Part shown: positions 514 to 6,390 of the stretch, one piece after another
How positions within the stretch are numbered: the stretch's first letter is position 1
How the letters are laid out: every line of letters starts with the position of its first letter
The notes under the pieces: model-generated
Database searches by the model: none
Seen by the model: the letters and a program-made list of their open reading frames with translations, nothing else
Told to the model about the DNA's origin: nothing
Source: a virus
Virus record (IMG/VR): IMGVR_UViG_3300011116_000179
Coordinates: 1 to 28,611 of that record
DNA length: 28,611 bases
Reading direction: 5' to 3' (one strand)
Made by a program: the position numbers and the translations under genes

Positions 514-657
514 ATGAAAATCATACTCACACAAGAGCAGTTAGAAAAAATCATTAAGGAATATTTTTACGACGACTACAACATCAAGATCAACGAGATT
601 GTATTTGCAGCTAACGTAGAACAGTTCTGCACGATCTACACAAAGGAAGCACCATGA
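514..657 (+). CDS. Phage microprotein, first gene of the early operon
   Basis: 47 aa, starting at an ATG eight bases after a clear AAGGAG-type ribosome binding site (about 500-508). It is acidic and aromatic, beginning MKIILTQEQLEKIIKEYF and then YDDYN. It has a predicted amphipathic helix near the start and no membrane segment. The stop TGA overlaps the next ATG (ATGA at 654-657), so translation is coupled. I recognise no family. The good start site, coupling and position at the head of a tightly packed operon make it likely to be a real gene; the function is unknown. Confidence 0.6.
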   Translation: MKIILTQEQLEKIIKEYFYDDYNIKINEIVFAANVEQFCTIYTKEAP

Positions 658-788
658 GCGTTGACTACGATGCCTGGTTAGATAGAAAACTTTACGAATA
701 CGACAGAGAGAGGGAACAAAATGACTACCAACAACAGTTGGAACAACAGGAGCACGAACTTGACCAAGTACAAGATAACGAGGAGTGA
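654..788 (+). CDS. Glutamine/glutamate-rich microprotein
   Basis: 44 aa, begun by an ATG that overlaps the previous stop. Composition is highly polar: a Tyr/Trp/Asp N-terminus (MSVDYDAWLDRKLYEYDRER) leads into a Gln/Glu-rich tail with runs of QQQ and QQ, likely helical. The second half overlaps, in another frame, the membrane microprotein at 721-852. There is no catalytic motif. It could be a small regulatory or host-takeover protein, but nothing in the sequence shows this. Confidence 0.5.
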   Translation: MSVDYDAWLDRKLYEYDREREQNDYQQQLEQQEHELDQVQDNEE

Positions 789-852
789 CTGGATCTTATG
801 CACAGCATTGGGGATTTGCTACGGAACACTGCTCTACCTGTTCATCAAATAA
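721..852 (+). CDS. Nested single-pass membrane microprotein
   Basis: 43 aa. The ATG at 721 follows GAGAGAGGGAACAAA, a usable ribosome binding site. The N-terminal half is polar and basic (MTTNNSWNNRSTNLTKYK, then ITRSD), followed by one hydrophobic segment of about 19 residues (WILCTALGICYGTLLYLFI) ending in lysine. The positive-inside rule predicts the N-terminus in the cytoplasm. The first 68 bases overlap the preceding gene in a different frame. The TAA stop at 850-852 lies just before the AAAGGAG site of the annealing-protein gene. A well-formed transmembrane helix in an overlapping frame with its own ribosome binding site is unlikely to be chance. The function is unknown. Confidence 0.5.
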   Translation: MTTNNSWNNRSTNLTKYKITRSDWILCTALGICYGTLLYLFIK

Positions 853-863
853 AGGAGCCAAAC

Positions 864-1394
864 ATGAAATTTGCAGAGTTAAGGAAAATAAACGTAACCG
901 AGAAGGTCGAGAAGAAAAACGGCCTTTCTTACCTGTCTTGGGCATGGGCCGTGGATACATTGTTGCAACACGATCCTACGGCCACATGGGAGTACAAGCC
1001 TTACCAAATGTGGGGCGACACAGTGATGGTGTTTTGTGAGGTAAAAGCATTCGGTGTATCTCGCACCGCACAACTTCCTGTCATGGACTACAAAAATAAG
1101 GCTATTTCTAACCCTGACGCGTTTGCAGTCAATACAGCTATGCAAAGGTGTCTGGCTAAAGCTATCTCGCTTCACGGTATTGGACTCTACATATACGCTG
1201 GAGAGGATCTGCCAGAGGAAACTAAAGAAGATCCAGCAGACCACCTCAAGATCGTGAGCAAGGCTGAGAGCATGGAAGATCTGAAGCAAGCCTTTACGAC
1301 AGCTTACAAGGCTCTAAAGAACGATCCTGAGGCTATTAAACAAATAGACGCAGCCAAAGAACAGCGCAAGAAAGAACTGACGGAGATCAAATGA
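864..1394 (+). CDS. Sak3-type single-strand annealing protein (DUF1071)
   Basis: 176 aa from the ATG at 864, which follows AAAGGAGCCAAAC; an in-frame ATG at 798 has no ribosome binding site and would overlap the membrane microprotein. The segment KKNGLSYLSWAWAVDTLL near the N-terminus, then the aromatic W-EY-P region, and AFAVNTAMQRCLAKAISLHGIGLYIYAGEDLP in mid-protein (positions about 89-120) are typical of DUF1071, grouped with Sak3-like recombinases of the Rad52-like superfamily. It would coat single-stranded DNA and anneal complementary strands, working with the YqaJ exonuclease encoded downstream. The C-terminal third is charged and helical. The stop overlaps the next start (ATGA at 1391). 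The family call is strong from memory of these motifs. Confidence 0.88.
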   Translation: MKFAELRKINVTEKVEKKNGLSYLSWAWAVDTLLQHDPTATWEYKPYQMWGDTVMVFCEVKAFGVSRTAQLPVMDYKNKAISNPDAFAVNTAMQRCLAKAISLHGIGLYIYAGEDLPEETKEDPADHLKIVSKAESMEDLKQAFTTAYKALKNDPEAIKQIDAAKEQRKKELTEIK

Positions 1395-3911: not shown

Positions 3912-4113
3912 GTCATCTGATGTTGGAGAGATAGCGGCAGCGTACGAAAGTGCACTGCCGTTTGTCGTTCAGGACTGGGCAAAGATGATCTTAAAGTTAG
4001 CTAAAAGCAAACGACTTCCGATCATCGAGAAGATCGAAAAGGTACACGGTGACAAGATAGGGCAGATGGTGCGAGACGAAGTTACCGCGCAACACAAAAG
4101 ACTTAAGACTTAG
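3877..4113 (+). CDS. Small basic helical protein, last gene of the early operon
   Basis: 78 aa with a GTG start preceded by AAGGAG (about 3861-3866) at good spacing. The sequence is lysine-rich and predicted helical, with WAKMILKLAKSKRLPIIEKI in the middle, which could bind DNA or form a coil. No family recognised. It ends the plus-strand operon, and its last 11 bases lie opposite the 3' end of the holin-like gene on the other strand. Confidence 0.55.
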   Translation: MASWINLIKQVKSSDVGEIAAAYESALPFVVQDWAKMILKLAKSKRLPIIEKIEKVHGDKIGQMVRDEVTAQHKRLKT

Positions 4114-4528
4114 CCGGAGGGACAACACCCTTAACGCGCTCAAAACTCCTCATCCCAGCAATCCCAAGCATCCCGCTCAAAATAACCCATAGAGCGTCGG
4201 TATCTAGCATGGGAGGAGGTTTTACCTCTCGCGGAACGATTTGTTCTGCTTGCATCCAAGTCCACGCCCAGACTAAAAGCGGGTAAGCAAGGAACTGATA
4301 GAACATCGCACCCGCACCAACCCAACCGATAGCCGGTCGCCAACCGGAAACAAACATGTTCTGGTTAGCCGCCTCGACCTTGTTGACTTCCATTTGACCA
4401 AGATCAATTGCCTGGTCGATACGCTTGGCCTCAAGCTCAAGCTCCATGCGTTCTTTGTCGGATGTGTGCAGGTCTCCGATAACCTTACCGACGCTATCAA
4501 CGATGGAAGAGATTCCGAGCAGGTTCAT
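4103..4528 (-). CDS. GTA-type 3TM holin-like membrane protein
   Basis: 141 aa from the ATG at 4528, which overlaps the endolysin stop (ATGA) and is preceded by AGGAC; an in-frame ATG eight codons upstream lacks a ribosome binding site. A charged helix (residues 22-52) leads to NQNMFVSGWRPAIGWVGAGA, the hallmark of the GTA_holin_3TM family. A long hydrophobic stretch follows (about 66-92, with YPLLVWAWTWMQ), and then a second one (about 112-127). Such proteins sit in the inner membrane and may form lesions for endolysin release. Its position directly after the endolysin supports a lysis role. It is the last gene of the late operon. Confidence 0.8.
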   Translation of the reverse strand: MNLLGISSIVDSVGKVIGDLHTSDKERMELELEAKRIDQAIDLGQMEVNKVEAANQNMFVSGWRPAIGWVGAGAMFYQFLAYPLLVWAWTWMQAEQIVPREVKPPPMLDTDALWVILSGMLGIAGMRSFERVKGVVPPAKS

Positions 4529-5025
4529 AGCTTGAGCGTCCTGTTGATCCAACCCAACATGAACTTCATTTGACTTCTGTCTCGCGTCACGATGTCACGA
4601 TAACGAGCAATCTTTGCCAGCGCGTAATAAGCCACAAATAGTTCAGGATTGGCTTGGTTGAGTGCAGATATAGTCTTGGGGCCAATAACGCCGTCTGGGG
4701 CCGTTTTAACGCATATCTGGGCAAGTTTGATAGATACGGGAACGCCAGCATTGACAGCAAAGTTAAAGAGGGACGAGGCTATAACGTCATGCGTTAAGTC
4801 ATCGCCTTTGATCTTGTTCCAGAAGTTCTCTTTATAGAAGTCTCGGACTAACTGCGTTGGAGGTGTTTCCTGGTAGTCGATATGCTGCCAGCCTTCCCAT
4901 TTGGGGTGCATCTTGCGAGCAATACCCGCATAGGTCTGACCGCCTCGATCTCCCTGAACTTCATGCAGGACGTAACCTCCTTCGTCCTCCATCATCTTGT
5001 CAAACGCTTGTTCAAAGTTAGCCAA
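4525..5025 (-). CDS. GH108 endolysin with PG-binding domain
   Basis: 166 aa using a TTG start at 5025, preceded by GAGGAG at six-base spacing. An ATG at 5169 in the same frame would lie deep inside the upstream gene and give a leader unrelated to the family. Residues 9-34 contain DEGGY with the catalytic glutamate E15 and GDRGGQTYAGI, matching glycosyl hydrolase family 108 lysozymes. Residues about 104-123 (CVKTAPDGVIGPKTISALN) match the PG_binding_3 domain usual at the C-terminus of these enzymes. It cleaves peptidoglycan glycan strands. There is no signal peptide, so export needs a holin. It overlaps the metallophosphoesterase end by eight bases. Confidence 0.9.
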   Translation of the reverse strand: MANFEQAFDKMMEDEGGYVLHEVQGDRGGQTYAGIARKMHPKWEGWQHIDYQETPPTQLVRDFYKENFWNKIKGDDLTHDVIASSLFNFAVNAGVPVSIKLAQICVKTAPDGVIGPKTISALNQANPELFVAYYALAKIARYRDIVTRDRSQMKFMLGWINRTLKL

Positions 5026-5953
5026 CTGCTGCTCCTCGGAAATACGCAGTCCCTTCGATAACCTCGACGAGTTCAGGAGGTAAGAGTAGACCATCTCTGA
5101 AACATAGGACAGCAAAGCCTGAGCACCAAGGAACGGGATTGTCCTCAATATAAGAGAACTGACCTCCATCAGGATCAGCTAACATCCCCGTAGAAATACC
5201 GTATCTGCGACCTCGATAGTCTCCCCATCCTTTGACCTCTAAGAGATGGGTATGCCCTGAGACCGTAGAGATGCCTGCTTTTAGGGTGTTGTTGTAGCCT
5301 GAGTGGATACCTGAATGTTGGAGTCTATGCTTAATCATGCAGATGTCATTGACCATCACCGACCAACTGACAGACCACTCCGGCAGATGATCCTTAAGAG
5401 TCGTACCTTGAATGCCTTTGAACTCAGGAACAGATCCGGCTAATCTTTTGTCAAACCGTATGTCATGGTTTCCTGTGGTTCGATGTAAGAAAGTACCTAG
5501 ACCTTTACAGGCCTTGACGATCTGATCCATATGCCACTGAACCGCTTCGAGTTCATCGCGTAGGCTTGTGACTGGCTCCCAGTCCATAGGGCCATACTTG
5601 GAGATAGTTCCCCCGTCGAGAATATCTCCGTTTGCGATAATCGCTTTGGGCTTTAGGGTCTTGATGAGTTTTAAGAGTGCATTGAACCCAGCGGAAGGTT
5701 CTCCAGGCATGAAGTGAGCGTCAGAGAATACGATCACATAGCCTTCAGTTTCTAGCGTCGCTCGCCTACGATTTTCAGGTAAGGTAAAACGAGCGTCTTT
5801 TGTTGGAAGAAGGATGTTGTATTTCTTCTCGATTGCCCTTCGTCGCTCGTAAACATTGCGAAGAGTAAGACCGATACGGTCTGAAATCTTAGTTGGGCTT
5901 CCTAGTTCTTTCCAGACTCTGATGAACTCTTCATCTTCTGACTTTTTTCTCAC
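5018..5953 (-). CDS. HTH-fused calcineurin-like metallophosphoesterase
   Basis: 311 aa, GTG start with GGAG at six bases. Residues about 15-45 (SPTKISDRIGLTLRNVYERRRAIEKK) form a helix-turn-helix like that of phage terminase small subunits or resolvases. The rest carries the full metallophosphoesterase set: D78-x-H80 (FSDAH), G109-D110, G161-N-H-D164, H209, and G233-H-T-H236. It should bind two metal ions and hydrolyse a phosphate ester; substrate unknown (nucleic acid or nucleotide are possible). It lies between a small protein and the endolysin, so it is transcribed with the lysis genes although nothing ties it chemically to lysis. The catalytic set looks intact. Confidence 0.87.
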   Translation of the reverse strand: MRKKSEDEEFIRVWKELGSPTKISDRIGLTLRNVYERRRAIEKKYNILLPTKDARFTLPENRRRATLETEGYVIVFSDAHFMPGEPSAGFNALLKLIKTLKPKAIIANGDILDGGTISKYGPMDWEPVTSLRDELEAVQWHMDQIVKACKGLGTFLHRTTGNHDIRFDKRLAGSVPEFKGIQGTTLKDHLPEWSVSWSVMVNDICMIKHRLQHSGIHSGYNNTLKAGISTVSGHTHLLEVKGWGDYRGRRYGISTGMLADPDGGQFSYIEDNPVPWCSGFAVLCFRDGLLLPPELVEVIEGTAYFRGAAVG

Positions 5954-6197
5954 GCCAAGCTCCGCGCTCTATGCTCTGGATCATCTTGCGCGGAATCACC
6001 AAAGACTGAGCGATTGCGTCGTCAGTCAATGACTGACAAATTTTCACGCCCTGCTTGGTCTCTGCTAATAAGAATCCTATAGAGACAACAAGCGGGACTT
6101 GAAAGTCCTTGGCTTTCTCTGGGCTATCACCCCACCCAAGAGTGTCGTGGCAGGCATCTTCCCAAACTACTTTAACTATCGGAAGATTGTGCTTCAT
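5931..6197 (-). CDS. Small conserved phage protein, beta-rich
   Basis: 88 aa, overlapping both neighbours by about 23-26 bases. The pattern VKVVWEDACHDTLGW, then a strand containing VVSIGFLLAET, then a C-terminal IPRKMIQSIE is a common layout of small phage proteins of unknown role found near lysis genes: short beta strands and an IPR-x2-I ending. A weak purine-rich stretch precedes the ATG. No catalytic residues are evident. Confidence 0.65.
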   Translation of the reverse strand: MKHNLPIVKVVWEDACHDTLGWGDSPEKAKDFQVPLVVSIGFLLAETKQGVKICQSLTDDAIAQSLVIPRKMIQSIERGAWREKKVRR

Positions 6198-6390
6198 TCT
6201 TCTTATCTTTTATGGCATGGAACCATTTCCAGACAAGCCAGCCGGACTGTAACACAATGTAGAGCAAGGTAGCAACTGCCACCCATTCATTCAGAGTCAG
6301 ACCGCCAACAGTCACTGCTGTTGTGATTGCTACAGGAGGAGTGGCTTTTGCAACCTCTACCAGTACGTCTGACTTCTGTTCGGGTGTCAT
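6172..6390 (-). CDS. Class II-like small holin candidate
   Basis: 72 aa, start overlapping the previous stop (ATGA). The N-terminus is polar (MTPEQKSDVLVEVAKATPP), followed by a moderately hydrophobic stretch and then a strong hydrophobic segment WVAVATLLYIVLQSGWLVWKW, and a charged tail (KDKKNEAQSSDS). One or two membrane passes and a charged C-terminus match small holins of T7-like and related podoviruses. With the GTA-type protein at 4103-4528 this gives two membrane lysis candidates; one may be a holin and the other an antiholin or accessory protein. I see no Rz/Rz1 spanin pair. Confidence 0.7.
   Translation of the reverse strand: MTPEQKSDVLVEVAKATPPVAITTAVTVGGLTLNEWVAVATLLYIVLQSGWLVWKWFHAIKDKKNEAQSSDS

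Follow-up and report, generated by a model that had tools for sequence, protein, structure and literature searches.

Upstream of a gene for a single-strand annealing protein (SSAP), the viral DNA analysed here contains a short hydrophobic reading frame that starts inside another small gene, raising the question of whether this frame is a real gene and, if so, what a protein of such limited size might do. The window, i.e. the whole stretch of DNA under analysis, is a 28.6-kb virus record whose portal, adaptor and capsid proteins match SU10 families, the portal having relatives in Methylophilales phage Venkman and Pelagibacter phage HTVC106P.

Genomic context of the microprotein gene

The features of the locus are compiled in Table 1. 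On the plus strand, the microprotein gene is followed by genes for the annealing protein, a weakly MarR-like protein, NinB, an HNH protein and a YqaJ exonuclease; the ATG of the annealing gene is reached 12 nt after the microprotein stop (11 intervening bases). A consensus scan for a promoter returned none. The position in this recombination operon suggests that the microprotein is expressed early.

Table 1. Features around the microprotein gene (window coordinates)
Feature	Position	Strand	Remarks
Acidic 44-aa gene	654-788	+	First 68 nt of the microprotein gene (721-788) overlap it in another frame
Purine-rich Shine-Dalgarno-like sequence agagagggaacaaa	707-720	+	5' of ATG 721; doubles as codons of the 654-788 gene
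Membrane microprotein gene, 43 aa	721-852	+	ATG 721, stop 850-852; kept in 105 distinct loci; omega about 0.35 outside the overlap
Predicted transmembrane helix WILCTALGICYGTLLYLFI	790-846	+	Invariant W24, L30, G31, G35, L37, F41; hydrophobicity; AlphaFold2
Spacer with the ribosome binding site of the annealing gene	853-863	+	AGGAG 853-857
Sak-type single-strand annealing protein (SSAP_Sak/DUF1071)	864-1394	+	PF06378, E 4.5e-43; phrog_659

The minus strand of the window carries, at positions 10-77, a match to the Rfam int-alpA RNA (RF02996; 42.8 bits, above the gathering score) and, at 101-454, the gene of a conserved 117-aa protein without family match, which is transcribed divergently beside the microprotein operon and adjoins this operon in 16 of 16 relatives examined, the ERF group included. 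Further away on the same strand (4103-6390), genes for a GTA 3-helix holin and a T7-family holin flank those for a GH108 endolysin and a metallophosphoesterase.

Reading frame and translation start

The product of frame 721-852, MTTNNSWNNRSTNLTKYKITRSDWILCTALGICYGTLLYLFIK, consists of a single transmembrane helix preceded by a short polar head. A preliminary description of this DNA had reported a 43-aa frame with its own ribosome binding site, overlapping with its first 68 bases a 44-aa gene in a different frame and ending just before the annealing protein. The coordinates, the length, the extent of the overlap and the end just before the annealing gene were borne out by the sequence. The claim of an own ribosome binding site held in part: the candidate GAGAGGGAAC is present 5' of ATG 721, but taken alone it is weak evidence for initiation, because the same bases provide the D-R-E-R-E-Q codons of the upstream gene. 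A possible second start was seen at TTG 760 in the microprotein frame, preceded at a distance of 7 nt by AGGAG (748-752), from which a 30-aa form would result; this AGGAG is missing in locus L067. A hairpin at 728-741 (CCAAC-AACA-GTTGG) was set aside, since it cannot persist in forms that miss two codons there.

ATG-initiated frames of the microprotein kind were seen once in the window, compared with about 0.15 expected in Markov-1 sequence of the same composition. An antisense GTG frame (678-803, minus strand) is likewise strongly hydrophobic, so that a hydrophobic frame by itself is unremarkable. As judged from the comparative data below, it is conservation, rather than hydrophobicity, that decides on the reality of frame 721-852.

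Conservation across related loci

A search anchored on the annealing protein, and blind to frame 721-852, yielded 80 loci. The microprotein was kept in all 67 loci with enough upstream DNA and an annealing protein of at least ~67% identity, comprising 66 nested copies (L001-L067 minus the truncated L039) and the short 25-aa form in L068. It was absent from all 12 more distant loci obtained in this search (L069-L080), where other small genes are found. Directly upstream of the annealing gene, L069-L072 encode a different, basic small protein of 35 aa (MITKYRRLRMSG...), and most of L073-L080 a YDxWLE-type protein of roughly 100 aa. With microprotein-anchored searches added, 105 distinct loci were obtained; an annealing gene comes next in 104 of them (Sak, 92; ERF, 12), and in the remaining one the contig ends there.

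Of 67 sequences, with the window counted, 59 start with ATG and 8 with GTG. The residues of the overlapped gene vary at this position while ATG/GTG stays, an argument for retention of the start itself. Relatives were examined for a dropped frame or helix, named in the preliminary description as counter-evidence, and the outcome did not refute the gene. On this comparative evidence, frame 721-852 was confirmed as a genuine phage gene. Among 11 reference phages, one of them a Lederbergvirus record, none had a small, strongly hydrophobic gene before the SSAP; that such a gene is a general phage feature was rejected on this count (0/11).

Selection on the frame

A tree-based substitution count over 49 distinct aligned sequences and the 21 codons outside the overlap gave 105 synonymous, 81 nonsynonymous and 0 stop events (p 1.9e-12 for the omega listed in Table 1); read in the remaining two frames, these bases gave omega values of 0.89 (12 stop events) and 1.20. 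Pairwise substitution counts agreed with the tree-based result. By these substitution patterns, the non-overlapping part of the microprotein was shown to be under purifying selection as a protein.

The same counts bear on a reading in which the conserved stretch is an N-terminal extension of the annealing protein, translated from ATG 798, or non-coding DNA. The ATG 798 frame is open in 32 of 32 distinct TM-only segments and, in the window, runs in frame into the SSAP gene; however, it is this frame that evolves neutrally (omega 1.20), in the L047 type it stands in a different register (SSAP offset 13, not 15), and the SSAP has its own start with AGGAG before position 864. The extension was rejected on the substitution pattern, and the reading as a whole is extremely improbable.

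Within the overlap, omega was about 0.62 in each of the two frames (p about 0.01). Given this weak frame-specific signal, the nested head may lack function. Overall, the overlap varied about a third as much as the remainder of the upstream gene, a contrast to which small alignment shifts in the upstream gene may contribute, so that main reliance was placed on the non-overlapping part.

Forms of the family

The window type comprises 43 aa, and a variant two codons shorter exists; the L047 type has 41 aa (MSENSWNN...VEWLLCAALGIALGVLMFFFVR), and intermediate forms are found in L067 and L243. In the L047 type (L047, L321-L329), the acidic gene was observed without its usual stop, its frame staying open across all of the microprotein gene and reaching into the beginning of the annealing gene. 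Divergent members have a stand-alone form of 25 aa, MRKIEWLAYIALGMFYGVLMFLFVR, free of overlap with the acidic gene; of the 11 distinct loci with this form, 10 continue into ERF and 1 into Sak. The acidic upstream gene is present in the nested loci and absent from the stand-alone type; polar head and acidic gene co-occur and go missing together. The earlier picture of a nested gene has to be revised in this respect, as nesting is dispensable and the stand-alone versions are the helix only.

Because the smallest members, at 25 aa, correspond to the helix alone, the helix is the likely working part; its W...LGxxxGxL...F pattern would form the functional core, with the nested head as a likely accessory. 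The simplest reading of the co-occurrence is that a translation start within the upstream gene gave rise to the head and that the helix suffices.

The annealing fold is exchanged at the microprotein junction in L139/L252, in L243 and in the 25-aa group. In L139 (3144-3758) and also in L252, the annealing protein is a hybrid of an ERF-type core and a Sak-type C-terminal tail; the tail shares its final residues, AIKQIDAAKEQRKKELTEIK, with the window annealing protein, pointing to an exchange of the annealing core with the tail kept.

The junction also invites the explanation that the frame is a leader, which couples translation to the SSAP or brings the mRNA to the membrane, the peptide being incidental. 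The SSAP starts a few to 12 nt after the stop, and its ribosome site falls within this gap; the positional link outlasts the replacement of Sak by ERF, and yohP mRNA has been reported at the membrane independently of translation (PMC7549839). Against this, codon-level selection on specific residues, the invariant W, G, G and F included, exceeds what coupling needs, and the SSAP has its own ribosome binding site, so that a mere leader is decidedly unlikely.

Transmembrane helix and database searches

The helix segment listed in Table 1 is the best 19-residue window (KD 1.92; Hessa-type sum -0.84), and the AlphaFold2 model of the microprotein is a single helix covering residues 21-42 with a local pLDDT of about 90, in agreement with the single transmembrane helix described previously. 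The residues given as invariant in Table 1 are so family-wide, and two of them, G31 and G35, constitute a GxxxG motif. Such patterns are common in helices and are no proof of dimerisation. Membrane topology is weakly predicted, and the L047 type has no net positive head. Expression and membrane insertion, as proposed in the preliminary description, are likely from the conserved start and frame, the predicted helix and the position in the recombination operon. Coding under protein-level selection, together with one predicted helix and little else, places the product descriptively among phage single-helix membrane microproteins.

PHROGs (v4), Pfam, NCBIfam and PADLOC gave no family match for the microprotein, or chance-level matches only, and there was no match to the PADLOC models of anti-phage defence. 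In tblastn searches of cultured phages with the 43-aa or the 25-aa query, no homologue was found at E up to 10, and the pattern matches in the bacterial genomes searched included none that was confirmed as a homologue. Based on these searches, the microprotein family is new, while its kind, that of phage single-helix microproteins, is familiar; the microprotein may stand unnamed in a phage small-gene catalogue.

The microprotein was also considered as a lysis regulator that forms hetero-oligomers with the holin of the phage, in the manner of an antiholin or accessory holin. By eye, the E/D-W start of its helix resembles the LNEW start of the T7-family holin helix (6172-6390), but profile comparison (hhalign) with the phage's own PF10746 holin gave a probability of 0.8% over 10 columns, ungapped scores against the holin were no better than those of shuffles, and the gene belongs to the recombination operon on the strand opposite to the lysis cassette (4103-6390). 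A holin/antiholin relationship was rejected on the profile comparison and the shuffle-level scores, and assignment as a T7-type (class II) holin (PF10746) on the missing Pfam match and the location of the gene at 721 (+), outside the lysis cassette (-); a regulatory role in lysis is very unlikely.

Proposed mode of action

The best explanation, held with moderate confidence, is that of an early single-pass inner-membrane microprotein whose glycine face acts on itself or on a host membrane protein. It would probably be made early together with the recombination operon and, because it is too short for cotranslational capture, would be inserted after release from the ribosome, with the N-terminus probably inside; Escherichia coli YohP (27 aa) is a worked example of post-release insertion of a single-helix protein (PMC7549839). 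The glycine face would pack laterally, with a second copy of the microprotein (homodimer) or with a helix belonging to an inner-membrane protein of the host. This packing would change a host membrane function early in infection, such as the entry of phages that arrive later or the work of a transporter or sensor, of a protease, or of a defence protein bound to the membrane. With almost nothing of the 25-residue core outside the membrane, the microprotein could act only within it. A function as an anchor of the annealing protein is disfavoured: a soluble part is missing from the core, and the core outlasts the exchange of the annealing fold from Sak to ERF at the junction.

The preliminary description had offered an early host-modifying or anti-defence role as a possibility; the present data speak neither for nor against it, and no defence family matched. 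Two specific forms of the membrane-effector explanation lead, each at modest probability: superinfection exclusion, and interference with a defence protein bound to the membrane. Some small phage membrane proteins block the DNA entry of further phages, and early insertion into the inner membrane might enable the microprotein to do the same. Its early-operon position, its one short helix lacking a catalytic part and its retention across many sequences of one phage group fit such a role, which we nonetheless place on the improbable side, with no sequence match to any named exclusion protein in the family libraries searched and nothing specific that indicates DNA entry. Alternatively, the microprotein might act against a membrane-bound defence or regulatory protein of the host, one conceivable way being to fill the helix interface of a membrane effector. 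The conserved possible packing face, the absence of a soluble domain and, again, the early-operon position are compatible with this; however, PADLOC and the other families provided no match, and the microprotein is uniformly kept across the group, unlike anti-defence genes, which usually come and go, making this option unlikely.

Relation to known systems and significance

phiX174 E and MS2 L, the single-helix lysis proteins of small phages, are encoded in overlapping frames, and the likeness to the microprotein is that of a membrane protein in a frame overlapping another gene; in contrast to these phages, the present one has holins and a GH108 endolysin elsewhere, and its microprotein gene is part of a recombination operon. 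Lambda and P22 have small early genes near their recombination genes (kil, arf and others), which are similar in being small genes in an annealing-protein operon, whereas a strongly hydrophobic microprotein before the SSAP was not among the genes of the 11 reference phages.

YohP and similar bacterial single-helix proteins likewise consist of almost only one helix, and YohP is, as the phage microprotein, too short for cotranslational SRP capture (PMC7549839). YohP dimers are mediated by a glycine in the helix (PMC7549839), but YohP is without GxxxG, which is invariant in the phage microprotein; YohP is a bacterial protein, the microprotein is encoded by a phage gene, and no sequence relationship between them was shown. 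Phage small genes number over 2 million (PMC11323111), and the microprotein is like the proteins reviewed there in its short gene and dense early operon; that review nowhere uses the word "transmembrane".

It is possible, although we lean slightly against it, that the microprotein represents an undescribed family of minimal phage membrane effectors with a 25-residue core, which would act in the host inner membrane by helix-helix packing only and be kept beside the annealing gene despite the Sak/ERF exchange. In any case, a group of uncultured phages conserves as a gene a frame of a kind, short and nested, that gene callers easily overlook. In this minimal single-helix protein, natural variants and invariant residues make function testable by point mutation, and the fact that its gene stays linked to annealing genes of two families gives a hint as to how early phage operons hold together.
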